Source of the DNA: Clostridia bacterium | GTDB taxonomy: Bacteria > Bacillota > Peptococcia > Peptococcales > SKKY01 | NCBI GenBank assembly: GCA_009930175.1 | Contig: RZYW01000005.1 | Coordinates: 1 to 50,933, forward strand | Direction of reading: 5' to 3' | Length of the DNA stretch: 50,933 nt | Shown: positions 1 to 14,642 of the stretch, one piece after another | Layout: each line of letters begins with the position of its first letter | How positions within the stretch are numbered: the first letter of the stretch is position 1 | Notes under the pieces: generated by a model | Databases searched by the model: none | What the model was told of the DNA's origin: nothing | What the model saw: the letters and a program-made list of their open reading frames with translations, nothing else | Translations under genes and position numbers: made by a program

Positions 1-1
1 C

Positions 2-163
2 TCCCTGGCATATATATACATAAGCTATGGAAACTTATTCGCCAAAATTTATGGACGCTTAAGTGCCAAAAATTATGGAAAAGTACTTGCCGTTTACAAT
101 AAAATGAAGAGTGGGAATAGGAGACGCTTCTTTTTGGTGCGCTTTATCCAAAGGAAGCTTTGA
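2..163 (+). CDS. C-terminal fragment of an unidentified protein truncated by the window edge (…YGNLFAKIYGRLSAKNYGKVLAVYNKMKSGNRRRFFLVRFIQRKL*)
   Basis: Frame open from base 2 to TGA at 161-163; basic C-terminus; family not recognised. Confidence 0.4.
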   Translation, partial: SLAYIYISYGNLFAKIYGRLSAKNYGKVLAVYNKMKSGNRRRFFLVRFIQRKL

Positions 164-303
164 TGGAAGAAATAAGCGTTGAAAAGAAAAAGGATAAAAA
201 GAAAAAAATATGGATATTTGGAACTCCCGGAAGCAGATGCTTCTGGGAGTTTTTTATTTTTAAAAGGATTTTTAATTCTTTTATGGAAGAATATACAAAA
301 TGA
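155..303 (+). repeat. Left copy (R1) of a diverged ~150-bp direct repeat containing a terminator-like hairpin (ACTCCCGGAAGCAGATGCTTCTGGGAGTTTTTT)
   Basis: Aligns by eye with 11497-11641: AAGCTTTGATG…AAGC[G/A]TTGAAAAGAAAAAG…CTCCC[G/A]GAAGCAGA[T/A]GCTTC[T/G]GGGAG[T/G]TTTTT…GGGAAGAATATA[C/A]AAAATGA. Confidence 0.75.
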
Positions 304-498
304 TATTTTATATATTCAATTCATTACAGATAGGGATATATCAGAATTATATCAGGTTAATACTAAAAGACTTAATGAACAAGTCAAGAGAAGTAAAATG
401 AGGTAGAAGAGGGGGGATTTAATTGAAAGTATCTCATTAAGAATAAAACACACCAGATGAAAACCTAGATAGTACATCCACAAAAAGGAGGAATTAAA

Positions 499-1243
499 AT
501 GTCTAAAATAAAAAAAGACACGATTGAGGCAAAGGGTTTTGCTATTCAAATTTATACTGAAGATTTCAAAAATGATTATATAAGTCTTACGGATATTGCA
601 AAATATAAAAATAATGAAGATCCAAGGTTTGTTATTCAAAACTGGATGAGGAATAGAAATACCTTAGAATATATAGGGTTATGGGAAACTTTAAACAATA
701 TAGACTTTAACCGTGTGCAATTCGACACGTTTAGAAATGAGGCAGGACTTAATAGATTTACAATGACTCCAACCAAGTGGGCGGAAACCACGAATGCTGT
801 TGGGATAATTTCAAAGTCAGGAAGACATGGAGGAACATATGCTCATACTGATATAGCGATGGAGTTTGAATAGAGAAATTTCTAAGATTAACTATAAGAT
901 CCATACTGATGCAATCAAAGAATATCTATTACAAAATCTTACAAATGAGCAACTATCTTATAAGTATGCAAGCGAAGTTGATATGCTAAATGTATCACTT
1001 TTCAATAAGAGAGCAAAACAGTGGCGTAAAGAAAATCCAGATTTGAATGGTAATATGAGAGATTGTGCGAGCATTAATGAATTATTGGTACTCGCAAATA
1101 TGGAAAGCTATAATGCAGTCTTAATTAGCAAAGGTATTAAGCAAAAAGAGAGAATGATAGAGCTTAGAAAACTTGCAAGAACACAGTTATTGTCAATCGA
1201 AAAATTAAACAACACAGGCCTTAAGAGTTTGGAAGATAAATAG
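499..1243 (+). pseudogene. KilA-N domain protein broken by an internal deletion/frameshift (N-part 499-873, C-part 866-1243)
   Basis: First ORF has the KilA-N domain (…YISLTDIAKYKNNEDPRFVIQNWMRNRNTLEYIGLWE…) and stops right after TDIAMEFE; second ORF (SKINYKIHTDAIKE…YASEVDMLNVSLFNKRAKQWR…) matches the usual C-terminal part of the same family. Confidence 0.8.
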
Positions 1244-1473
1244 GATATTTATCTAAAGCTCCATTAATTGAATCTAAGACAGTTCCTGGTTTTTTAGTAT
1301 CTCCAATAACTATTTTCCCTGATATTGTTAAAAATGATTTGGATAACCAGGCAGTTAAAACTAATTTGACTATTCCAGCCTGGTTAAAAGATTTGGCAGA
1401 GGAGCAAGGAGTAAATTATTCGAAAGTATTTCAAACAGCCTTAATGGATTATCTTGGGATTAATAAGACGTAA
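1243..1473 (+). pseudogene. HicB-family antitoxin C-terminal remnant
   Basis: Frame reads …DNQAVKTNLTIPAWLKDLAEEQGVNYSKVFQTALMDYLGINKT*, the typical HicB C-terminal RHH segment; in-frame TAA at 1237-1239 and no plausible start codon. Confidence 0.7.
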
Positions 1474-1604
1474 TGCCCACATTTATAATATTATAAATGA
1501 ATATGCTATTTCTATTAATCTAAATTTTGTTCGCACCCCTTGTATTTATTCCTATTATTAAGATATACTGTTCCTATAAAAGTATTTTTCATGAGGTGAG
1601 TAAG

Positions 1605-2519
1605 ATGGATTACATGAAAGTATCAGAAGCAGCAGAAAAGTGGGGTCTGTCTACCCGTCGAGTGCGTATTCTTTGCCAAGAAAATAGAATTGAGGGTGTC
1701 ATTCGCAAAGGCAACCTTTATATGATACCAACCGAATCAAAAAGGCCAGAAGACCTTCGCAGTAAGGGACGGAATCGCACTGTCCTAAAAAAATTACTTG
1801 ATAATATTGATAAAAACTTAGAAAAACTCTCTAATATGCGTCCACTGACTAAAGGCGAGACCGAACGTTTAAGGGATGAGTTTTTGATTGAATTTACCTA
1901 CAACTCCAATGCCATTGAGGGTAATACTCTCACCTTGCAAGAGACAGCAATGGTTTTAGAAGGTATCACCATTGATCAAAAACCATTAAAAGAGCACTTA
2001 GAGATTATTGGACATCGTGATGCATTTCAATATGTAGAGAACCTTGTAAGGGATAAGGTGGAGTTTTCAGAATATGTGATTAAAAATATACACTCACTTG
2101 TTTTAATGGATAGACCTGAAGACAAAGGTGTTTTTCGACGTATTCCTGTACGTATTATGGGTGCTTTCCACCAGCCTCCACAACCTTATATGGTTGAACC
2201 AATGATGAATGAATTATTAGTAAATCACAGACAAAGAAAGGATAAAATGCACCTTGTAGAAGCAGTTGCATTGTTCCACTTAGATTTTGAGGGTATCCAC
2301 CCTTTTATTGATGGTAATGGACGTACAGGAAGATTACTTATCAACTTAGAATTAATGCAGAATGGTTATCCTGCTATAGATGTGAAGTTCTCTGATAGAA
2401 GAAAATACTATCAGGCTTTTGATGAGTATTATCGCAATCAGAATGAGCTGCCTATGGTGGAAATGCTTGCAGGGTATGTGAATGAGAAATTGGAGAAGTA
2501 TGTGGAGATTTTAGCTTAG
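1605..2519 (+). CDS. Fic/DOC family protein with N-terminal helix-turn-helix domain
   Basis: Fic motif HPFIDGNGRTGR; putative inhibitory motif SNAIEGN; N-terminal MKVSEAAEKWGLSTRRVRILCQENRIEG HTH; RBS GAGGTGAG before ATG 1605 (ORF track extends to 1527). Confidence 0.9.
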   Translation: MDYMKVSEAAEKWGLSTRRVRILCQENRIEGVIRKGNLYMIPTESKRPEDLRSKGRNRTVLKKLLDNIDKNLEKLSNMRPLTKGETERLRDEFLIEFTYNSNAIEGNTLTLQETAMVLEGITIDQKPLKEHLEIIGHRDAFQYVENLVRDKVEFSEYVIKNIHSLVLMDRPEDKGVFRRIPVRIMGAFHQPPQPYMVEPMMNELLVNHRQRKDKMHLVEAVALFHLDFEGIHPFIDGNGRTGRLLINLELMQNGYPAIDVKFSDRRKYYQAFDEYYRNQNELPMVEMLAGYVNEKLEKYVEILA

Positions 2520-2593
2520 GTTTTAATGATCCATTGCTATAATAAAGATATCAAGTCATAATGCACACGCGATACACATTGAGGGGTGAAGAA

Positions 2594-2725
2594 ATGGGCC
2601 TTTTAAGTTTTATGCAGGAAAATTGTAAATATGTTACTGAAGAAGAGCAAAAAGAACTCGAGGAAATGAATGTTGATTTTTCTGATTCTTCGGGGAAGGA
2701 ACTTTCATTAGATGAGGTATTATAA
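2594..2725 (+). CDS. Small 43-aa ORF, unknown (MGLLSFMQENCKYVTEEEQKELEEMNVDFSDSSGKELSLDEVL)
   Basis: ATG with purine-rich GAGGGGTGAAGAA upstream; acidic peptide; not in supplied ORF track. Confidence 0.45.
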   Translation: MGLLSFMQENCKYVTEEEQKELEEMNVDFSDSSGKELSLDEVL

Positions 2726-2796
2726 GATGAAATATTAATTTTTGTTTTTGGTATAGATGACAGAGGAGATATTTATAAAAAATAAAGATTAGAAAA

Positions 2797-2837
2797 GCAA
2801 AAAAACCTCTCAGAGTGCCACTTCTGGGAGGTTTTTT
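2797..2837 (+). terminator. Rho-independent terminator ACCTCTCAGAGTGCCACTTCTGGGAGGTTTTTT
   Basis: Imperfect stem followed by T-tract, upstream of hsdM. Confidence 0.65.
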
Positions 2838-2946
2838 GTACACTGATTCCTCCACTTTTATTATTTTATCAGCTATAATATATGTGAACTTTATATTTTA
2901 TTAGGTATAATAAACAGGTGATATCAAAAACGGAGGAGACTGGAAT

Positions 2947-4515
2947 ATGAATAACAAAAAAGAGCAGGAACGAGCTGAGTTACACCGCACAATTTGGGGA
3001 ATTGCAAATGATCTCAGAGGCAGTGTTGACGGATGGGATTTCAAACAATACGTTCTGGGAATGCTTTTCTACCGCTATATTTCCGAGAACCTTACCCAAT
3101 ACATAAACCAAGCAGAATGGGATGCAGGAGACACTTCCTTCGACTATTCAAAAATAACTGATGAACAGGCAGAGCAGGCTCGTGAAGACCTTGTAGACAC
3201 AAAAGGTTTCTACATCCTTCCCAGTGAGCTGTTCTGTAATGTTAAAAATAAAGCAGCATCAGATGAAAACCTGAACGAAACTCTTGAAAGAATATTTAAA
3301 AATATAGAAGCGTCAGCCCAAGGAACCAATAACGAAGATAACTTCAAGGGCTTATTTGACGATTTAGATGTAAACAGCAACAAACTTGGTGGTACAGTAG
3401 CCAAACGTAATGAAAAACTAGTAAAGCTTATGAATGGCATCGGCAACTTGAAATTAGGAGATTACAGAGAAAACACCATAGATGCTTTTGGCGATGCTTA
3501 CGAGTATCTTATGGGTATGTATGCCTCCAATGCAGGAAAAAGCGGCGGAGAGTATTATACACCTCAGGAAGTATCTGAGCTTCTTACGCGCCTTACTCTT
3601 GTTGGAAAAACAGAGGTAAACAAAGTATATGACCCAGCTTGTGGTTCAGGTTCTCTTTTACTTAAATTTGCAAAAATTCTTGGCAAAGAAAATGTCCGTC
3701 AGGGCTTTTATGGACAGGAAATCAATATTACTACATATAACCTTTGCCGTATTAACATGTTCCTACATGACATCGATTATGACAGATTCAACATTGGCCA
3801 TGGGGATACTCTTTCTGATCCTCTCCATTGGGATGAGGAGCCTTTTGAGGCAATTGTTTCTAATCCCCCTTATTCAATTAAATGGGATGGAGATGCTAAC
3901 CCGATTCTAATTAATGACCCTCGTTTTTCACCAGCAGGGGTATTGGCACCAAAATCCAAAGCAGACCTTGCCTTTATTATGCATAGTCTTTCCTGGCTGG
4001 CTACTAACGGAACTGCAGCAATAGTTTGCTTCCCAGGAATTTTTTATCGTGGTGGTGCTGAACAGAAAATAAGGAAGTATCTTGTAGATAATAACTATGT
4101 AGATTGTATTATCCAGCTTCCTCCCAATCTGTTTTTTGGAACAAGCATAGCAACTTGTATTATGGTTCTAAAAAAATCCAAAAAAGATAATAAAACTATG
4201 TTTATTGATGCTTCCAGGGAATTTGTAAAGATAACTAACAGTAATAAGCTGACAGATGCAAATATAGAAAAAATAGTATCTGCTTTTGCTGATAAAAAAG
4301 AAGAAGACTATTTCTTAAAAGTTGTTTCTAATGATGAAATCGCAGCTCAGGATTACAACCTGTCTGTTTCCACTTACTTGGAGCAGGAGGACACTCGTGA
4401 GGTTATAGATATAACAAAGCTTAATAAAGAAATAGAAAAAATCATTCTAAGAGGAGACGAACTTAGAAAAGATATCGCCGCCATTATTGCTGAAATAGAA
4501 GGTGAGAGTAAATGA
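2947..4515 (+). CDS. hsdM: Type I restriction-modification system DNA methyltransferase subunit HsdM
   Basis: [19 protein letters not shown] motif, VSNPPYS (NPPY catalytic motif), HsdM N-terminal domain. Confidence 0.97.
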
Positions 4516-5642
4516 GTAAGCTGAATGATTTAATAGCAGAACTATGCCCGGATGGAGTGGAGTATGCATCAATTGGTTCATTGATAACACGCGGAAGAGA
4601 ACGTGGTAAATATAATAAGGAAATACAGCAAGTATATGTTGTTAGTAATAGTATGGGCATGGTAAAGGCAGAAGAATTTAGAGAGAACACAATTCATAGT
4701 GAGGATACATCTAACTATACAGTAATTAAACCTGGTATGTATGCCTATAATCCTTCGAGATTAAACATAGGCTCGATTGCTATGCTGAAAGATAATACTT
4801 GGGGATTGGTAAGTCCTATGTATGTTGTTTTTTCAATAGATGAAAGTAAAATAATAAAGGAATATTTTGAATATACTATTAAATCAACCTTTGTGAGAAA
4901 TAAGATAAAAACGTTAAAGGAAGAGGGGGCAAGGTTCCGCTTTGACTTTAATCGTTGGGATTGGATACAAATCCCTATCCCTCCTCTATCTATCCAAGAG
5001 GAAATCATACGTATTCTAGACAAATTCACTTCCTTAGAGGCGGAGCTGGAGGCGGAACTGGAGGCAAGAAGGCAGCAGTATGAGTATTATAGGGATAGTT
5101 TGTTGACCTTTGGAAATGAAGTAGAGCGGAAGACTTTAGGGGAAGTATGTAGTAGCATTGTTTCTGGAAAAAATAAAAAAAGAATACAAAATGGAAAATT
5201 CCCAGTATATGGTTCAACTGGCGTAATTGGCTATACGGATGAATATTCTTATAATGAAGAATTATTATTAGTAGCAAGAGTTGGAGCAAATTGTGGCTTT
5301 GTTAATAAAGTAGAAGGCAAAATTGATGTTTCGGATAATACATTAATTATTAAAGTAAATAAAAATTATAATTTAAATTTTGCTTATTATCAACTAACAA
5401 ATATGAACTTAAATAATCTTTCAATTGGTGGAGGCCAACCATTGATAACGGCAGGAAAATTAAAATCTCTATATATCCCTATCCCTCCTCTTGAGGAGCA
5501 GGAGCGCATCGTTGCTATCCTTGACCGCTTTGATGCCCTTGTCAATGACATCAGCCAGGGTATCCCTGCAGAAATAGAGGCAAGACGTAAACAGTATGAA
5601 TATTATCGTGATAAGTTACTGACTTTCAAGGAGGTAGTCTGA
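4512..5642 (+). CDS. hsdS: Type I restriction system specificity subunit HsdS (two target-recognition domains)
   Basis: ATGA overlap with hsdM; duplicated conserved segments [19 protein letters not shown]…[16 protein letters not shown] and [19 protein letters not shown]…[16 protein letters not shown]. Confidence 0.96.
5034..5069 (+). repeat. Three imperfect 12-nt tandem repeats in the central spacer of hsdS ([12 protein letters not shown])
   Basis: TTAGAGGCGGAG CTGGAGGCGGAA CTGGAGGCAAGA, in frame. Confidence 0.85.
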
Positions 5643-8600
5643 TGATAAAATACAATATTGTTGCATCTACTAATGAAGCTACCGTTGTAGCAGAATACAT
5701 GCCAGAGCCATATAGAGCAACGGATTACCAAAGTGAAGCTGCTTTAGAAAAGGACCTTATTAATCGTCTTTGTTCTCAGGGTTATGACTATATTACTATC
5801 AGAAAAGAAGAAGACTTAGTAAATAACCTTAGGGAACAGTTGGAGCTTGTAAATAATTACCAGTTTTCTGATGAGGAATGGAAAAGATTTTTTACTCAGA
5901 ATATTGCTGGAGCAAATGAAGGAATATCTGAGAAAACCAAAAAGATACAGGAAGACCATGTTCAGATTCTTAAAAGAGATGATGGCAGTACTAAGAACAT
6001 TATTTTAATAGACAAAAAGAATATCCATAATAACCGCCTTCAGGTTATCAATCAATACGAAGAATCTGAAGGCAACAGGGATACCAGATATGATGTAACA
6101 ATACTTGTTAATGGTTTTCCCATGGTACATATTGAACTAAAACGCAGAGGAGTTCCAATCAGGGAAGCCTTTAACCAAATAAGAAGATACCAAAGAGATA
6201 GTTTCTGGGCAGCCTCAGGCTTGTATGAGTATGTCCAGCTCTTTGTTATTTCTAATGGTACACATACTAAGTATTATTCCAATACCACAAGAACCCAGCA
6301 TATCAAAGAAGCAGGGGAAGGGAACAAAAGTAAAAGTAAAAAGACCAGCCACAGCTTTGAGTTTACCAGCTACTGGGCAGATGCTAATAACAAGGTTATT
6401 GCTGATCTTGTAGATTTTACTAAAACCTTTTTTGCTAAACATACTATTCTAAATATTATTACTAAATACTGCGTATTCACATCAGAAGAAACTCTTTTAG
6501 TAATGCGACCCTATCAAATTGCTGCTACAGAAAGAATCTTAAGCAGAATAGAAATATCAACTAACTACAAAAAAACAGGAACTCTGGAAGCAGGAGGATT
6601 TGTCTGGCATACAACAGGGTCAGGGAAAACTCTTACCAGTTTTAAAACTTCACAGCTTGCCACAGCCCTTCCTTATATAGATAAGGTTCTATTTGTCGTT
6701 GACAGAAAAGATTTAGATTATCAAACAATGAAGGAATATGACAGGTTTGCTAAGGGAGCGGCTAATGGGAATACATCTACCAGAATTTTGCAAAAACAGC
6801 TGGAAAATCCAGATGCCAAAATTATTATTACCACTATCCAGAAATTAGATGTATTTATCAGGAAGAACAAGGTCCATGATGTTTACAAAAAGCATGTTGT
6901 TCTTATCTTTGATGAATGCCATCGCTCCCAGTTTGGAGAAATGCATCAGAAAATAATTAAATCCTTTAGGAATTATCATATCTTTGGCTTTACAGGAACA
7001 CCAATTTTTGCCAAGAACTCAGGAAGTGGAGGTAATCCTCTCTTTAGAACAACTCCCCAGGCCTTTGGAGAGAAGCTTCATACCTATACCATTGTTGATG
7101 CTATTAATGATGCTAATGTTCTGCCTTTCCGTATAGACTTTATTAACACTATTAAGGAAAAGAAAAATATTCTTGATACAAAGGTAAAGGCAATAGATGT
7201 AGAAAAGGCTCTGATGGCTCCCGAGAGGATAAAAGAGGTTACTTCCTATATCCTTGATCACTTTGACCAGAAAACAAAGAGAAGCAGTTTTTATTCCCTG
7301 AAGGGACAACGGATGCAGGGATTTAACTCTATTTTTGCTGTTGCTTCTATTCCTATGGCTATGAGATATTACACAGAATTTCAAAGACAGCTGGAGGAAA
7401 GAAATAGAAATCTTGTTGTTGCAACTATCTTCAGTTTTAATCCAAATGAAGAAGAGCCAGATGACATTCTTCCAGATGAGAGTTTTGAACCGGAAAAGCT
7501 GGATAAACCTTCCAGAGATTTTCTTGATTCAGCCATAGCAGATTACAACAAGGCTTTCTGTACCAGCTATGATACATCATCAGATAACTTCCAGAACTAT
7601 TATAAGGACCTGTCCCAGAGGGTTAAGGACAGGGAAGTGGATATCCTTATTGTTGTTAATATGTTCTTAACAGGCTTTGATGCCACTACCTTAAATACAT
7701 TATGGGTGGATAAGAATCTGAAACAGCATGGACTGATTCAAGCGTTCTCCCGTACTAATCGTATTTTAAACTCAGTAAAAACCTTTGGTAATATTGTTTG
7801 TTTCCGAGATCTTAAACAGGCAACAGATGATGCAATAGCTTTATTTGGGGATAAGGAAGCTGGAGGAATTGTTCTTCTTAGAACCTTTGATGAATATTAC
7901 GAGGGATTTGAGGATAAAGGAAGGTACAATCCTGGCTATAGAGAGTTAATTGAAAAACTAGAGGAAAATTATCCAATAGGGCAGGCAATAATAGGAGAGC
8001 AGGAACAAAAAGATTTTATTAATCTCTTCGGTTCAATTTTACGGACAAAAAATATACTAACATCCTTTGATGACTTTGAAGGTAAAGAACTTTTAAATCA
8101 GAGGGATTTCCAGGATTATCAGAGTGTTTATATTGATCTTTATGAGAAGTATAGAAAAAATGAAAAAGTTGATAAAGAGGTTATTAATGATGACATAACC
8201 TTTGAAATGGAATTGATTAAGCAAGTAGAAGTAAACATAGACTATATTTTGATGATGGTCGCTAAATATCATCAAAGTAACTGTGAGGACAAGAGTATTC
8301 TTACTTCAATTCATAAAGCTGTAAGCTCCAGTATGGAACTAAGAAGCAAGAAAGAATTGATAGAAGGATTTATTGAAAGAGTAAACCTTTCAGAATCAGA
8401 AAATGTCGAAAACGACTGGCATAAATTTGTTAATGAACAAAAGGAAAAAGAAATTGAAGTATTAATAGAGGAAGAAAAACTAAAACCAGAAGAAACCAGA
8501 AAATATATAGAAGGATCCCTAAGAGATGGCAACCTGAAAACCACAGGAACAGACCTAGACAAAATATTACCACCAGTATCCCGCTTCTCCGGAGGAAACA

Positions 8601-8668
8601 GAACAGAAAAAAAACAAACAGTAATCGAAAAACTGATGAGATTCTTTGAAAAGTACCTCGGGGTGTAA
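5642..8668 (+). CDS. hsdR: Type I restriction endonuclease subunit HsdR
   Basis: Nuclease motif (RYDVTILVNGFPMVHIELKRRG), Walker A TTGSGKTLTS, DECHRSQ box, helicase motifs; overlaps hsdS stop. Confidence 0.97.
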   Translation: MIKYNIVASTNEATVVAEYMPEPYRATDYQSEAALEKDLINRLCSQGYDYITIRKEEDLVNNLREQLELVNNYQFSDEEWKRFFTQNIAGANEGISEKTKKIQEDHVQILKRDDGSTKNIILIDKKNIHNNRLQVINQYEESEGNRDTRYDVTILVNGFPMVHIELKRRGVPIREAFNQIRRYQRDSFWAASGLYEYVQLFVISNGTHTKYYSNTTRTQHIKEAGEGNKSKSKKTSHSFEFTSYWADANNKVIADLVDFTKTFFAKHTILNIITKYCVFTSEETLLVMRPYQIAATERILSRIEISTNYKKTGTLEAGGFVWHTTGSGKTLTSFKTSQLATALPYIDKVLFVVDRKDLDYQTMKEYDRFAKGAANGNTSTRILQKQLENPDAKIIITTIQKLDVFIRKNKVHDVYKKHVVLIFDECHRSQFGEMHQKIIKSFRNYHIFGFTGTPIFAKNSGSGGNPLFRTTPQAFGEKLHTYTIVDAINDANVLPFRIDFINTIKEKKNILDTKVKAIDVEKALMAPERIKEVTSYILDHFDQKTKRSSFYSLKGQRMQGFNSIFAVASIPMAMRYYTEFQRQLEERNRNLVVATIFSFNPNEEEPDDILPDESFEPEKLDKPSRDFLDSAIADYNKAFCTSYDTSSDNFQNYYKDLSQRVKDREVDILIVVNMFLTGFDATTLNTLWVDKNLKQHGLIQAFSRTNRILNSVKTFGNIVCFRDLKQATDDAIALFGDKEAGGIVLLRTFDEYYEGFEDKGRYNPGYRELIEKLEENYPIGQAIIGEQEQKDFINLFGSILRTKNILTSFDDFEGKELLNQRDFQDYQSVYIDLYEKYRKNEKVDKEVINDDITFEMELIKQVEVNIDYILMMVAKYHQSNCEDKSILTSIHKAVSSSMELRSKKELIEGFIERVNLSESENVENDWHKFVNEQKEKEIEVLIEEEKLKPEETRKYIEGSLRDGNLKTTGTDLDKILPPVSRFSGGNRTEKKQTVIEKLMRFFEKYLGV

Positions 8669-8680
8669 CCAGAGGTAAGT

Positions 8681-8705
8681 GGTTATTTCCATTTTGGAAA
8701 TAACC
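8681..8705. other. Perfect 10-bp inverted repeat GGTTATTTCC-ATTTT-GGAAATAACC directly after hsdR
   Basis: Direct reading; no T-tract follows. Confidence 0.8.
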
Positions 8706-9157
8706 ATAAGAAAGAGAACTAGCCTATTAAAGTATAAATGGATTCTAAATAAAAAAAATACAAGAAAACGGACTTTTTTGAATGATATTATTCAAATGGT
8801 TAGATTAAACAGAGATTGATTGCTATAGATGTTAGCAGGAGTTTATCTATAGATATGGAGGGAGAGAATTTAAAAACAGCAAAAGGTTTATAAATGGTTT
8901 CTTCATTCCGAAAAAATCAAAATATTAGATGAATAAAAAATAGAAAAAGTTTAGAGGCAAAAGGTAGAGTTGTATAAGTAAATAATATATATGAATTTAA
9001 GATGAACAAATTATCATATGAAAAAAGATTGTTTTATTGGATATAGGTTTACTTAAAAATTATTATTAAATGCCCTCAGAAAAAGAAGATGGGTATATTG
9101 GAATGATAAGAGAAGCAAGTGTAAAGTATTAATGGCTATGAAAGGTAGGTATTAGAT

Positions 9158-11476
9158 ATGATTAGGAAAATTAGTAAATTAGAAAATTTTGGCATTTTTA
9201 AAAATTTTACATCCAATGATATAAATGATTTTAAAAAGTACAATTTAATTTATGGATGGAATGGATCTGGAAAAAGTACATTGTCAAGATTATTTAGTTC
9301 TTTTTGTGGTCAGAATTTATCAGAAATACATAATAATTATAAAGTATGTATTAATTTGGATAATAATTTATATACAGAGAAACAATTGCCTATTCAGGAT
9401 AAAAATATAGCAATTTTTAATGAAGATTTTATAAAAGATAATATAGATTGGAATGGAACTTTAAAAAGTATATTGTTGATAGATGATAAAAACATAGATG
9501 AAATCAAAGAATATAACTTACTAAAAACAGATTTGTTTGGAGACCAAAAGACAGATGGTTTGCTGAAAGAATATGAGATTAAAGAAAAAGAACAATTAAA
9601 TATAGAAAAAGAATTTCAGAAAATATTCACAAACATTGGGAAAAATGTCAAGAATAATTTTCAACTATTAGATACAACTGATTCCTATTATATGAATTAT
9701 GATAAACGAAAAGTTATATCTTTAATTGATGATCAAGATAATCCTGTATCTGAAAAAGATCTTATAAAAGAAGTTGAATTAGATAATTTAATAAAGCAAG
9801 CAAGACCAATAAAAAAAGATATAATTTCTAAAAATATTGAAATTTTAAATATAAAAAATTTTAAAAATGAAATTAAGAAAACTAGTGAGCTAATTTCTCG
9901 AAGTGTCACTTCAACGGTAATAGATGAATTAAAAAATAACCTTCTATTATCAGATTGGGTGGAGAATGGATTGAATTTACATAAAAATGAAAATAGAAAA
10001 ATATGTGCATTTTGCGGTTCTCCAATAAATGAGGATAGACTTAAAAGATTAGATGGTCATTTTAGTAATGCATTAAGTACTTTAAACTCAGAAATATTGT
10101 CTTCCATAGATACGTGGGGCTCTTTTAAGGTTCCTACTGATATCGATTACATTGATGAGAGTATTTTTTTTGATGAATTGTCTGAAAAAGTCAAAGAAAA
10201 CAACATAAAGTATAAAAAAACTGCTATATTAATAAATTCTGAAGTAAATACATATATCGAAGTGTTGAAAGAAAAACAAAAAAACCCATTTGAAATAATA
10301 GAAATTCATTTCGAAGTTAGTAAAGTTATAGACTTGTTAAATCAAAATATTTTAGTTGTAAAAAGTATTAAAGAAATTATTGATATCCATAATGAGAAAG
10401 CAAAAAATTTTGAAAATAATATAAATAACGCAAAAAAACGTATCGAAAGACATTATATTCAAGAACAGATAAAACAATTTAAATATATTGATAAAAAGAA
10501 ATTAGCACAAGAATGTAAAAGTGATTTAGAAAAAATAAAGAAAAAAATTAAGCAAAAAGAGGAAAAATATGAAATTTTAGAAAATAAATTATCAAGCGAA
10601 ACTTTAGGAGCAGAAGATTTTAATGAAAAACTTGAAAAATTTTTAGGTTATGGAGAAATTAAGCTAAAGTTTGATAAAAATAAAAAAGGATATAATATAT
10701 ATAGGAATAAAGAGGAAGAAGCAAAAAATTTAAGTGAAGGAGAAAAAACAGCAATAGCATTTATTTACTTTATAATAAAACTTAAGGAAGAAGGAAGAAA
10801 AATAGAAGATACAATTCTTGTAATTGATGATCCGATATCTAGCTTTGATTCTAACAAACTGTTTTCTGCATATGCTTATATGAAATCAGAGTGTGATATT
10901 GCAAAACAATTATTTGTATTGACACATAATTATAATTTCTTTTCGTTAGTTTTGGGATGGTTTAATAAAAAACATATTAAAGATTTAAATAACAAAAAAA
11001 TATCAGACTATAATATATATAGGATAGAAAATAAGTTTGTGGATGGAGTAAGATATGCATTTTTAAATGATGGGGGAGAAGGTTTAAAACAAGCAACTGA
11101 ATATGATTACATTTTCAATATGGTTTATTCTCTAAAAGAGAAACCTTTATCAAAGCAAGAAATGATTTTTTGTGGTAATATTTCCAGAAAACTTGTTGAG
11201 TCTTTTTTGAGTTTTAAATTTCCTAAACAGAGGTCAGATTTAATGGCTTTATTAAATGCTGCATTGCCTGGAAAGAGTAATGATATAATTAGAGAAAGAA
11301 TATATAAGTTTGTAAATGTATACTCTCATGAAAAAAAGATTAATGTACGTGAAGAACTTGATACTGAAGTTCTTGATGCTAACAGTCAAATGGTGATAAA
11401 TGATATTTTAAAAATGATAGAAAAATTAGATAAAGTTCATTATGCTGCAATGGTAGAAAAAATAGAAAAGAATTAG
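9158..11476 (+). CDS. AAA_13-type ABC ATPase with zinc-hook CxxC and candidate C-terminal nuclease residues; PrrC/RloC-like anticodon nuclease candidate
   Basis: Walker A GWNGSGKSTLSRLF, NEDFIKDNIDWNG, zinc hook CAFCGSPI in a coiled coil, signature LSEGEKTAIAF, Walker B TILVIDDPISSFDS, C-terminal RKLVE…YSH. Confidence 0.8.
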   Translation: MIRKISKLENFGIFKNFTSNDINDFKKYNLIYGWNGSGKSTLSRLFSSFCGQNLSEIHNNYKVCINLDNNLYTEKQLPIQDKNIAIFNEDFIKDNIDWNGTLKSILLIDDKNIDEIKEYNLLKTDLFGDQKTDGLLKEYEIKEKEQLNIEKEFQKIFTNIGKNVKNNFQLLDTTDSYYMNYDKRKVISLIDDQDNPVSEKDLIKEVELDNLIKQARPIKKDIISKNIEILNIKNFKNEIKKTSELISRSVTSTVIDELKNNLLLSDWVENGLNLHKNENRKICAFCGSPINEDRLKRLDGHFSNALSTLNSEILSSIDTWGSFKVPTDIDYIDESIFFDELSEKVKENNIKYKKTAILINSEVNTYIEVLKEKQKNPFEIIEIHFEVSKVIDLLNQNILVVKSIKEIIDIHNEKAKNFENNINNAKKRIERHYIQEQIKQFKYIDKKKLAQECKSDLEKIKKKIKQKEEKYEILENKLSSETLGAEDFNEKLEKFLGYGEIKLKFDKNKKGYNIYRNKEEEAKNLSEGEKTAIAFIYFIIKLKEEGRKIEDTILVIDDPISSFDSNKLFSAYAYMKSECDIAKQLFVLTHNYNFFSLVLGWFNKKHIKDLNNKKISDYNIYRIENKFVDGVRYAFLNDGGEGLKQATEYDYIFNMVYSLKEKPLSKQEMIFCGNISRKLVESFLSFKFPKQRSDLMALLNAALPGKSNDIIRERIYKFVNVYSHEKKINVREELDTEVLDANSQMVINDILKMIEKLDKVHYAAMVEKIEKN

Positions 11477-11496
11477 CTATTAAAATTATTCATAAA

Positions 11497-11641
11497 AAGC
11501 TTTGATGAAAATATCAAGCATTGAAAAGAAAAAGATACAACAATACAGATATTTTGACCTCCCAGAAGCAGAAGCTTCGGGGAGGTTTTTGATATAAAAA
11601 AAGGAATTTTGCATTTTTTTAGGGAAGAATATAAAAAATGA
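11497..11641 (+). repeat. Right copy (R2) of the diverged direct repeat, containing terminator ACCTCCCAGAAGCAGAAGCTTCGGGGAGGTTTTT
   Basis: Aligns with 155-303. Confidence 0.75.
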
Positions 11642-11729
11642 GGAAACTAATTAAGAAAATAATTGCAAAGCCCTATTTAATAGGGTAAAATTATCAAAGT
11701 AAGGTGAATATATGGAATGAGAATTTATT

Positions 11730-11951
11730 ATGACCTCAGAATTTGACAAGAAATGGAAACAGTTAGGATTTTCTGACATGGATTTCAATATCAGTTATTG
11801 ATTAATATTAAATCAGGAGATGTAATTGTCGGCACAGGAGGCCTTAGAAAAGAACGTTTCTCTATAGAAAAACGAGGTAAAAGAAGTGGATTGAGGATAA
11901 TATATGTTGATTTGGAAAAATATGGTTGAATATCTTGAAAAGTTAGAAAGG
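11730..11951 (+). pseudogene. Decayed RelE/HigB-family toxin
   Basis: Frame 1 MTSEFDKKWKQLGFSDMDF… then frameshift to …QLLINIKSGDVIVGTGGLRKERFSIEKRGKRSGLRIIYVDLEKYG* and a further-frame remnant MVEYLEKLERGK; GTGGLRKxRF…GKRSGLRIIY is the RelE/HigB core. Confidence 0.8.
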
Positions 11952-11961
11952 GGGAAGTCAA

Positions 11962-12285
11962 TTGAGCACTGATCTATTTAACAGTATATTGACCGGACTT
12001 GAAGAAGCTATTGAACATGCTGAAGGGAAGAAAAAACTTCGTAATCAAAAAAGGAAGGTTATAGTAATACCCCTTCCCGATTATAAAGCTGAAGATATTA
12101 AAGAAATTAGAATGAAAGTTAATATGACGCAAAGAGTTTTTGCTGATTTTATGGGAGTCTCTGTAAAGACTGTAGAAGCATGGGAGGCAGGGAAAAATGA
12201 ACCAAGTGGTCCAGCCAAAAGAGTGTTGAGTTTAATTATAAGTAATCCTTGTCTTCCGGAAGAATATGAAATAGTAGTAAGGTAG
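11962..12285 (+). CDS. HigA-type antitoxin / XRE-family helix-turn-helix regulator
   Basis: HTH core IRMKVNMTQRVFADFMGVSVKTVEAWEAGKNEPSGPAKRVL; directly follows the toxin remnant; TTG start. Confidence 0.88.
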   Translation: MSTDLFNSILTGLEEAIEHAEGKKKLRNQKRKVIVIPLPDYKAEDIKEIRMKVNMTQRVFADFMGVSVKTVEAWEAGKNEPSGPAKRVLSLIISNPCLPEEYEIVVR

Positions 12286-12325
12286 TTCGGATATTATATT
12301 AGTCTTAAGGAGAGAGCACACTAAA

Positions 12326-13045
12326 ATGAAACCTTTGCCTATAAATATTGATAAACTGCATACAACAGATTTGGGAGCCATTAGAATCAAACGCAACCTA
12401 AATTTGCAAACCGATGATATTATTCCTTGGTGTAAAGCATTCGTAAGAACAGCAGATCTAATCATTGGGCAGGGTAAAAACTGGTATGCCTATAAAAATG
12501 GTATGGTAATTACTATAAACATGAAAAGCAATACAATTATTACCGCACACTTTTTAAAGCCAAAAATTCGCCCTATAGAACTTTCTGACTATGCATGTCT
12601 TCCTGAGTTTCTATATCAGTCAATTTTCATTCCTGAAGGAGTAGAGGTACCACCAAGGGATATAATTAATGATCCTCAAATATTTGTCTATATTAAAGAT
12701 TTTGGCACTCAAGCTGGAGATTTAGGAGTAGTGGCAGAACAAAACGGTCAAGTTATTGGCGCTGCCTGGACCAGGATAATCCCTGCTTATGGTCACATAA
12801 ATGAAAAAACCCCGGAACTGGCAATTTCAATATTACCGGAATTCCGAGGATATGGGATTGGTACAAAACTAATGAAAAATCTTTTTGAAATATTGAAAAA
12901 TAATGGTTATAAACAAACATCCCTATCCGTTCAAAAGGACAACCCGGCAACTAAGTTTTATTTAAAACTTGGATATAAAGTCACCAAAGAGAAACTTGAC
13001 CATGTGGGTAACCGGGATTTTATTATGGTTAAAGAGCTGCTTTAA
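12326..13045 (+). CDS. DUF3781-like domain fused to GNAT N-acetyltransferase
   Basis: N-term INIDKLHTTDLGAIRIKRNLNL…IIPWCK…GKNWYAYKNGMVITINMKSNTIITAH (DUF3781-like); C-term IRPIELSDY…ELAISILPEFRGYGIGTKLMKNLFEILKNNGYKQTSLSVQKDNPATKFYLKLGYKV (GNAT). Confidence 0.8.
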   Translation: MKPLPINIDKLHTTDLGAIRIKRNLNLQTDDIIPWCKAFVRTADLIIGQGKNWYAYKNGMVITINMKSNTIITAHFLKPKIRPIELSDYACLPEFLYQSIFIPEGVEVPPRDIINDPQIFVYIKDFGTQAGDLGVVAEQNGQVIGAAWTRIIPAYGHINEKTPELAISILPEFRGYGIGTKLMKNLFEILKNNGYKQTSLSVQKDNPATKFYLKLGYKVTKEKLDHVGNRDFIMVKELL

Positions 13046-13053
13046 AGAATTTT

Positions 13054-13092
13054 AAGTATGAACCACCGAGGATATCTCGGTAGTTCATACTT
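13054..13092. terminator. Bidirectional hairpin AAGTATGAACcACCGAG-gatat-CTCGGTaGTTCATACTT between GNAT and hicB
   Basis: Near-perfect long inverted repeat between convergent genes, overlapping the hicB stop. Confidence 0.8.
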
Positions 13093-13468
13093 TTAGTTTT
13101 TCCTTTAGGCGTTCTTGCAATTCTTGAGAAAAGTTAATTCCTGCATTTTCTCCAAGAACTTTTAAATATTTTGGAACAGATACATTGATTCTCATTGTTG
13201 TCATATCATTAGCTCTGCGGTACTTAGCAAAATCAATATCTACCCATGAAACCAATTCCTGAGATTCATGTTCCGATTCAATGATAGATGGTTCAGGTAT
13301 TTGCCTGCCGTCGTCTTCTTCACTAATTCCCCAAAGACCTATAGCATCTCTTGCCATATAAATAGCTTCAGCCAAATCTTTGCCTTGTGTATTTATATCA
13401 AGATCAGGAACTGTAACAACATAACCAGTATCAGTAGGAGTAAGAATAATTGGATATACTTTAGTCAT
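13085..13468 (-). CDS. hicB: HicB-family antitoxin
   Basis: MTKVYPIILTPTDTGYVVTVPDLDINTQGKDLAEAIYMARDAIGLWGISEEDDG… and C-terminal INVSVPKYLKVLGENAGINFSQELQERLKEKL. Confidence 0.9.
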   Translation of the reverse strand: MTKVYPIILTPTDTGYVVTVPDLDINTQGKDLAEAIYMARDAIGLWGISEEDDGRQIPEPSIIESEHESQELVSWVDIDFAKYRRANDMTTMRINVSVPKYLKVLGENAGINFSQELQERLKEKLKV

Positions 13469-13501
13469 TTCAGAAACTTCCTTTCATTAATTGTCGAATG
13501 G

Positions 13502-13675
13502 CTATTTTAGATTTCGACGTTTGATTATTTTTTTAGCAAGAATTTCATTAATTTCAGTTTGGCGAGAGATGGGTTCATTCGCTTTTCCATTGGTGTATAT
13601 TGAGTGATCATGACCTTGACGCTTTAACCACCAACCATTTTTCTTTAATAGTTTTATCAGATCTTTGCGCTTCAC
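13502..13675 (-). CDS. hicA: HicA-family mRNA interferase toxin (57 aa), GTG start; absent from supplied ORF track
   Basis: VKRKDLIKLLKKNGWWLKRQGHDHSIYTNGKANEPISRQTEINEILAKKIIKRRNLK*, typical HicA with GxxH; upstream of hicB on same strand. Confidence 0.9.
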   Translation of the reverse strand: MKRKDLIKLLKKNGWWLKRQGHDHSIYTNGKANEPISRQTEINEILAKKIIKRRNLK

Positions 13676-13693
13676 ATTTGCACCTCACAAACT

Positions 13694-13723
13694 CATTATA
13701 CACAATTGTTGTGTATAATGCAA
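13694..13723 (-). promoter_or_regulatory. hicAB promoter/operator: perfect 12-bp inverted repeat overlapping -35 TTGCAT / -10 TATAAT
   Basis: CATTATACACAA-TTG-TTGTGTATAATG (13694-13720); minus strand TTGCAT-N17-TATAAT. Confidence 0.8.
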
Positions 13724-13838
13724 AATAATTAAGCTAAAACAAAACTGATTACTTTGTTTATAATTGTATTTCGAAAAATTTATTAATATTCCTTAAAAAG
13801 GTTTATATATATTTCATTAGCTGTAAAGGATTGATTAC

Positions 13839-14642
13839 ATGGATAAAGAAAAGGAATACTGGGAAATTGATTTAGATAATGATTTAAAAAATGATTTGGA
13901 TTCTGAATTGTTGGAAGAACTAAACAATTTAGATGATGATTCGAAGGAAGAACTGGGAAAGGGCAAAAAAAGATCGGGTAAAAGAGTGATAGCTTTAATA
14001 ACTTTAACTATATTCTCCTTTTTTATCTTAGACAGCATTTTCAGATTCTCAAGTGCTCCTGACCTTGGATTCTTAGGGGAATCCTTTAAGCTTAAACAGG
14101 AAGAAGAAATTCAGAACCTTCAGGAAGCTGTGGTTTCTATTCAGAATCAGCAAAAATTAGGCACTGGATTTAATATTAGCCCAGATGGAATAATTGTGAC
14201 TAATGAACACGTAATTCGTGATGGAGAAAATATTTTTATCCAGTTTCCATCAGGAAAAAGTTTTAAAGGGAGTCCTGAATTAATAATTCCAGAACTTGAT
14301 TTTGCGATTCTTAGCGTAGAAGGTGAAGATCTTCCGTATCTTAAAACAGGTACTTCCAGTGACATTGTTTCAGGGCAGGAAGTTTTGATTATCGGAAATC
14401 CCCTGGGATACTCTGGGATAGTAAAAAAAGGCGAAGTTATCGGAACGGGAAAAGTAAATACTATTGAAGAAGAAGTTATTTTTATTAAGGGACCTATCTA
14501 CAAAGGAAGCAGCGGCAGCCCGGTTTTTAACAGCAAAGAAGAAGTAATTGCCATTATTTTCGCAACCCTGATTCAGGAAAGCAGTAACACCGATGAAATA
14601 ATTGGAGTCGCCATCCCCATCGATTTAGTAACAACCCGCTGA
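13839..14642 (+). CDS. Membrane-anchored trypsin-like (S1C/HtrA-type) serine protease, copy 1
   Basis: TM segment; triad context TNEHVIRDG, ELDFAILS, KGSSGSPVF; no PDZ evident. Confidence 0.88.
   Translation: MDKEKEYWEIDLDNDLKNDLDSELLEELNNLDDDSKEELGKGKKRSGKRVIALITLTIFSFFILDSIFRFSSAPDLGFLGESFKLKQEEEIQNLQEAVVSIQNQQKLGTGFNISPDGIIVTNEHVIRDGENIFIQFPSGKSFKGSPELIIPELDFAILSVEGEDLPYLKTGTSSDIVSGQEVLIIGNPLGYSGIVKKGEVIGTGKVNTIEEEVIFIKGPIYKGSSGSPVFNSKEEVIAIIFATLIQESSNTDEIIGVAIPIDLVTTR

Follow-up and report, generated by a model that had tools for sequence, protein, structure and literature searches.

The gene at positions 9158..11476 on the forward strand of the window, which is the whole stretch of 50,933 nucleotides from a Clostridia bacterium that was analysed, very likely encodes an anticodon nuclease of the RloC type. 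The locus is best explained, with high confidence, as that of a self-regulated RloC-family anticodon nuclease that is independent of its hsd neighbour and that derives from a mobile restriction-linked module. The protein is a further member of a known family, and an ordinary one. Its surroundings include the remains of a type II restriction gene.

The rloC-like gene is intact, has an ATG start, and encodes 772 amino acids with an ABC ATPase, a coiled coil with a zinc hook, and a C-terminal domain of the anticodon nuclease type. As the initial annotation had claimed for this reading frame, the ATPase is of the AAA_13 type, with the Pfam profile (PF13166) scoring 427 bits across residues 10-752, nearly the whole length of the protein. 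The ABC motifs are all present: the Walker A sequence GWNGSGKS (9254..9277, residues 33-40), the signature LSEGE (10730..10744, residues 525-529), and the Walker B sequence ILVIDDP (10814..10834, residues 553-559). The zinc-hook motif CAFC (10004..10015, C283-A-F-C286) is in the middle of the protein. Towards the C-terminus are the parts of the catalytic triad, R677-x3-E681 (RKLVE, 11186..11200) and S723-H724 (11324..11329), with 42 residues between the Glu and the His. All of these are read on the forward strand.

RloC is a family of bacterial enzymes that respond to DNA damage by cutting tRNA, which halts protein synthesis. It has been defined by its ABC motifs, a CxxC hook within an inserted coiled coil, a length of 658-897 amino acids, and a C-terminal R-x3-E-x36-52-H, in which Ser often precedes the His (Davidov & Kaufmann 2008, PMC2610378). 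The length of the window protein, its C283/C286 hook, and its R677/E681/S723-H724 triad with a gap of 42 agree with this definition. In the order of its domains, the place of its hook, the spacing of its triad, and its overall length, it corresponds to RloC from Geobacillus kaustophilus and Acinetobacter baylyi (Davidov & Kaufmann 2008, Klaiman et al. 2013). Based on published residue numbers, R677 and E681 are equivalent to R692 and E696 of the 804 amino acid G. kaustophilus protein (GkaRloC), and H724 to its H737; its hook is C288/C291 (PMC2610378). Every mutation of the GkaRloC triad abolishes activity, while mutations of the hook enhance it (PMC2610378). PADLOC assigns the window protein, with 531 bits, to PDC-S06, a defence candidate that one paper lists without characterising it. 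RloC was among the systems left out of testing in a study of S. thermophilus.

The motif pattern by itself is not decisive: when the protein is shuffled, 5.2% of the copies contain CxxC, 2.4% contain R-x3-E-x36-52-SH, and 0.13% contain both. In an alignment of the window protein with 13 homologues, with identities down to 22%, C283, C286, R677, E681, S723, and H724 are invariant in all 14 sequences, and the Walker A sequence is also conserved. The motif assignment is settled because these residues are conserved across homologues, which outweighs the shuffle statistics. The zinc hook that had been put forward as an RloC hallmark and the proposed Arg/Glu/His triad are thus both confirmed. A survey of 23 full-length sequences, including the window protein, found the hook together with the triad in 22. 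The exception is a prophage protein annotated as 'RloC' (L022), in which the hook is kept and the triad pattern is unmatched.

The initial annotation had left the family open as RloC/PrrC-like. Profiles, size, and hook support the RloC part of this, but not the PrrC part. PrrC proteins are defined as having 341-416 amino acids and no hook insert, and are always linked to type IC loci (PMC2610378). Matches to the PrrC model within the same phylum are open frames of 371-442 amino acids beside hsd genes, with R-x3-E...SH present and no CxxC. Membership of PrrC was rejected for the window protein on its 772 amino acids, its hook, and a PADLOC PrrC score of 22.7 bits (residues 466-755) against 531 for PDC-S06. 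PrrC from the EcoprrI locus shares the ABC motifs, the R-x3-E...SH triad, and a neighbouring type IC hsd operon with the window protein, but it is about half the size, hookless, and located inside the hsd operon. A profile alignment of residues 524-727 with PrrC is co-linear from the ABC signature to the SH (probability 96.8%, E 3e-10). The C-terminal piece by itself gave no significant match to the PrrC profile (probability 0.6%), and therefore the homology to PrrC rests on the longer co-linear alignment.

In the full-length structural model (pLDDT 80.5, pTM 0.52) the ABC head is split, the helices of the coiled coil are long, and the C-terminus is helical. The hook CxxC is flanked on either side by long helices, in an insert splitting the ATPase. 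In the PDB, the folds that match best are those of Lamassu LmuB, cohesin SMC heads, Rad50, and retron-associated ATPases. A PDB search with the single sequence found no solved homologue, and a profile search gave weak Rad50/AriA-type matches only. The hook region is weakly matched by the Rad50 zinc-hook structure 1l8d. It is very improbable that these likenesses indicate a DNA-repair protein of the Rad50/SbcC type, without a nuclease of its own. LmuB and Rad50/SbcC share the ABC/SMC head and coiled coil with the window protein, but Rad50/SbcC do not have a fused C-terminal HEPN-type nuclease domain, nor the invariant R/E/H of the conserved domain found here. In addition, no SbcD/Mre11 nuclease was seen among the scanned neighbours (Fic, hsdMSR, NadS-like, and GNAT).

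The C-terminal 132 residues (641-772; 11078..11473, forward strand) were modelled by AlphaFold2 as six helices in an all-helical bundle (pLDDT 82.8). The top 20 PDB fold matches to this HEPN-like domain are mostly HEPN proteins (HepT/MntA pairs, AbiV, and HEPN toxins) at E ~1 and TM 0.4-0.5, with entries 7bxo, 1wwp, 9bj7, 8yuf, 6m6w, and 4nqf ranking high, if weakly. The assignment to HEPN leans mainly on published work (PMC3710099). The initial annotation had staked its proposal on a HEPN-like fold here; the helical bundle and the predominance of HEPN entries are compatible with one, but at E ~1 they leave the proposal standing rather than confirm it. The weakness of the fold match could also suit an AAA_13 ATPase defence protein with a C-terminal domain that cuts other RNA, such as mRNA or rRNA, or that is no longer catalytic. 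The window clade differs from known RloC in having Lys for the Arg of the HEPN R-x6-H: it is K717-x6-H724 in the window protein, and Lys also in its nearest relatives (L002, L003, L004, and L006), while most homologues have Arg. Both this substitution and the PADLOC listing as a candidate without function would fit such a protein. However, the triad that is essential in GkaRloC is strictly kept, and another RNA target or an inactive domain is considered unlikely.

Upstream of rloC and on the same strand is an hsdMSR operon (2947-8668). It consists of a type I methylase gene, hsdM (2947..4515, TIGR00497 756 bits), a specificity subunit gene, hsdS (4512..5642, PF01420 124 bits), and hsdR (5642..8668, PF04313 168 bits), which is the only PF04313 match in the genome. 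The C-terminus of HsdR matches EcoR124_C (PF12008, 238 bits), and the operon is therefore type IC, as had been described. Ahead of it on the same strand is a TTG-started frame for a SoFic/PDC-S04-like Fic-domain protein (1527..2519; PF02661 72.5 bits, PDC-S04 130 bits) with an intact HPFIDGNGR. The sequence SNAIEG, an SxxxEG-type motif at residue 127, lies ahead of the Fic core and could be the inhibitory helix. A KilA-N gene (PADLOC PDC-S22, 499-1243) is disrupted, its two overlapping frames leaving out about 33 profile positions where they should join, and the KilA-N gene near rloC in L004 (15229-16073) is likewise frame-broken. Downstream, at 11962-12285, is a NadS-like HTH antitoxin frame with no evident intact toxin; the stretch ahead of it (11700-11960) may contain a decayed toxin frame. 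An Rfam scan of 1-14000 found no RNA family, and promoter and terminator signals in 8500-12000 were not above those of shuffled sequences.

RloC-like ABC-HEPN genes have been known since 2013 to cluster with restriction-modification, DOC/Fic, and RhuM-like genes (Anantharaman et al., PMC3710099), and the arrangement in the window is therefore not new. The initial annotation had added that the Fic gene could be a further layer of defence; clusters that combine RloC, restriction-modification, and DOC/Fic genes are among those published. Its composition is the same in the restriction-modification operon and the Fic/Doc-like toxin gene, with the difference that the KilA-N gene is broken.

Between hsdR and rloC are 489 bp. 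The initial annotation had taken these as an upstream region of about 490 bp belonging to the nuclease gene; the size is right, but positions 9000..9129 (forward strand) hold what is left of an AlwI-type type II restriction endonuclease gene, a relic of its 3' end with in-frame stops and an internal deletion. When the 3' end of the restriction gene of a relative (L003) was compared with the whole window, the two best DNA matches were at the relic (E 4e-8 and 4e-5; 76% over 67 columns and 66% over 80), and the next unrelated place was at E 0.039. At the protein level the match contains stop codons and a 17-residue gap. Not one of 500 dinucleotide shuffles reached its local alignment score for L003, nor did any of 500 for L004. 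With L002, where the upstream gene is a different type II gene, 8 of 500 shuffles reached the score of the region, and there was no signal with the L005 control. There was no convincing match of the relic to two other AlwI-type genes (L050 and L051), and a protein search found no AlwI-type match in the genome. Between the end of the relic and rloC are 28 bp. The rloC gene of G. kaustophilus is also downstream of a restriction-gene relic, although there it is the 3' part of hsdR and here it is type II.

Among the relatives found, those closest to the window protein come from Eggerthia (71% identical), Megasphaera (70%), and an uncultured Eubacteriales bacterium (70%). In the last two, a methylase gene and an intact AlwI-type restriction gene are followed 25 bp on by rloC; these two loci resemble each other closely and are therefore not fully independent. 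The Eggerthia rloC is preceded by a type II methylase gene and a restriction gene, with an hsd operon further downstream. In more distant relatives (L005, L031, L038, L040, and L045) rloC is beside hsd genes, following hsdRMS in L005. The order in L045 (6022-14304) is hsdM-hsdS-rloC-hsdR, which places a hooked RloC where PrrC usually sits inside the hsd operon. RloC relatives in L038 and L043 are beside DUF6079 and N6/N4 methylase genes, in a BREX-like defence cluster. On three plasmids (L035, L036, and L037) there is no restriction-modification gene near rloC. In L036 it lies between imuA, polymerase Y, and error-prone polymerase genes and an SOS-response peptidase gene, which fits a role in DNA damage. 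The restriction partners of rloC thus vary among these relatives, which are a small sample that was not drawn to estimate frequencies.

Close relatives of the hsd operon occur without the nuclease gene. At three hsd loci whose HsdR is 70-78% identical, rloC is absent from the roughly 8 kb downstream, and in two of these three genomes no rloC match was found. The G+C content of rloC is 24%, against 35-38% for the hsd genes, though the rloC genes of the relatives are likewise AT-rich. The relic, the hsd relatives that lack rloC, and this contrast in G+C together indicate that hsd and rloC were joined secondarily. The present restriction-system neighbour is probably not the original partner of rloC, and neither hsdM nor the hsd operon as a whole is probably its dedicated partner.

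This bears on the proposal that the hsdMSR operon and the nuclease are a PrrC-type silencing pair, in which the type IC HsdMSR enzyme physically silences the nuclease until a phage anti-restriction protein frees it. The operon is directly upstream on the same strand, the linkage of PrrC to type IC systems is invariable, and linkage of RloC to type I genes recurs in the five distant relatives. However, there is a type II relic between the two, the nearest relatives are directly behind type II rather than type IC systems, the close hsd relatives lack rloC, and the base composition differs. Furthermore, a DNA-break inducer activates the endogenous RloC of A. baylyi in hsd mutants as well as in the wild type (PMC3874168). 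Control of the window RloC by the hsd operon has no positive support except adjacency and is unlikely, though the two loci, still adjacent, may interact in cis.

What was seen directly in the window is the motifs, their conservation, a Rad50/SMC-type head, a helical C-terminal domain, and the relic. To this self-regulated RloC, the functions of its relatives would add DNA-end sensing, tRNA cleavage, wobble excision, and phage defence. The Rad50-like ABC ATPase head would bear the coiled coil with its Zn-binding CxxC hook, and the hook, bridged by Zn, would act with the ATPase at rest to keep the C-terminal ribonuclease domain inactive. On contact of the head with DNA ends, produced by phage attack, by failed or excessive restriction, or by genotoxic stress, ATP hydrolysis would free the nuclease domain. 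The R677/E681/H724 site would then cut tRNA in the anticodon loop, stopping translation and blocking the growth of the phage. GkaRloC excises the wobble nucleotide, and tRNA-Glu and tRNA-Gln are natural substrates of A. baylyi RloC. Regulation would be internal and the neighbouring type IC enzyme would not be needed. The gene would have arrived with a mobile restriction-linked module, beside the AlwI-type restriction gene that is now reduced to a relic.

It is possible, though this is put forward only tentatively, that RloC of the window clade serves as a general alarm on restriction systems whatever their type, among them type II enzymes that introduce double-strand breaks. Ends that the adjacent restriction enzyme cuts in phage DNA, or in host DNA once the methylase is lost, would then trigger tRNA cleavage. 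If so, no specific silencing contact would be needed, and the module could swap restriction partners and leave relics behind.

The analysis of this locus is most useful for the trace that it gives of an exchange of partners. Here a sequence fossil corrects the attractive, probably wrong inference of an hsd-coupled PrrC-like cassette. The adjacency of genes is poor evidence that a nuclease is silenced by a restriction enzyme. If the partners of RloC are exchanged between type I and type II systems, what RloC senses becomes a testable question.
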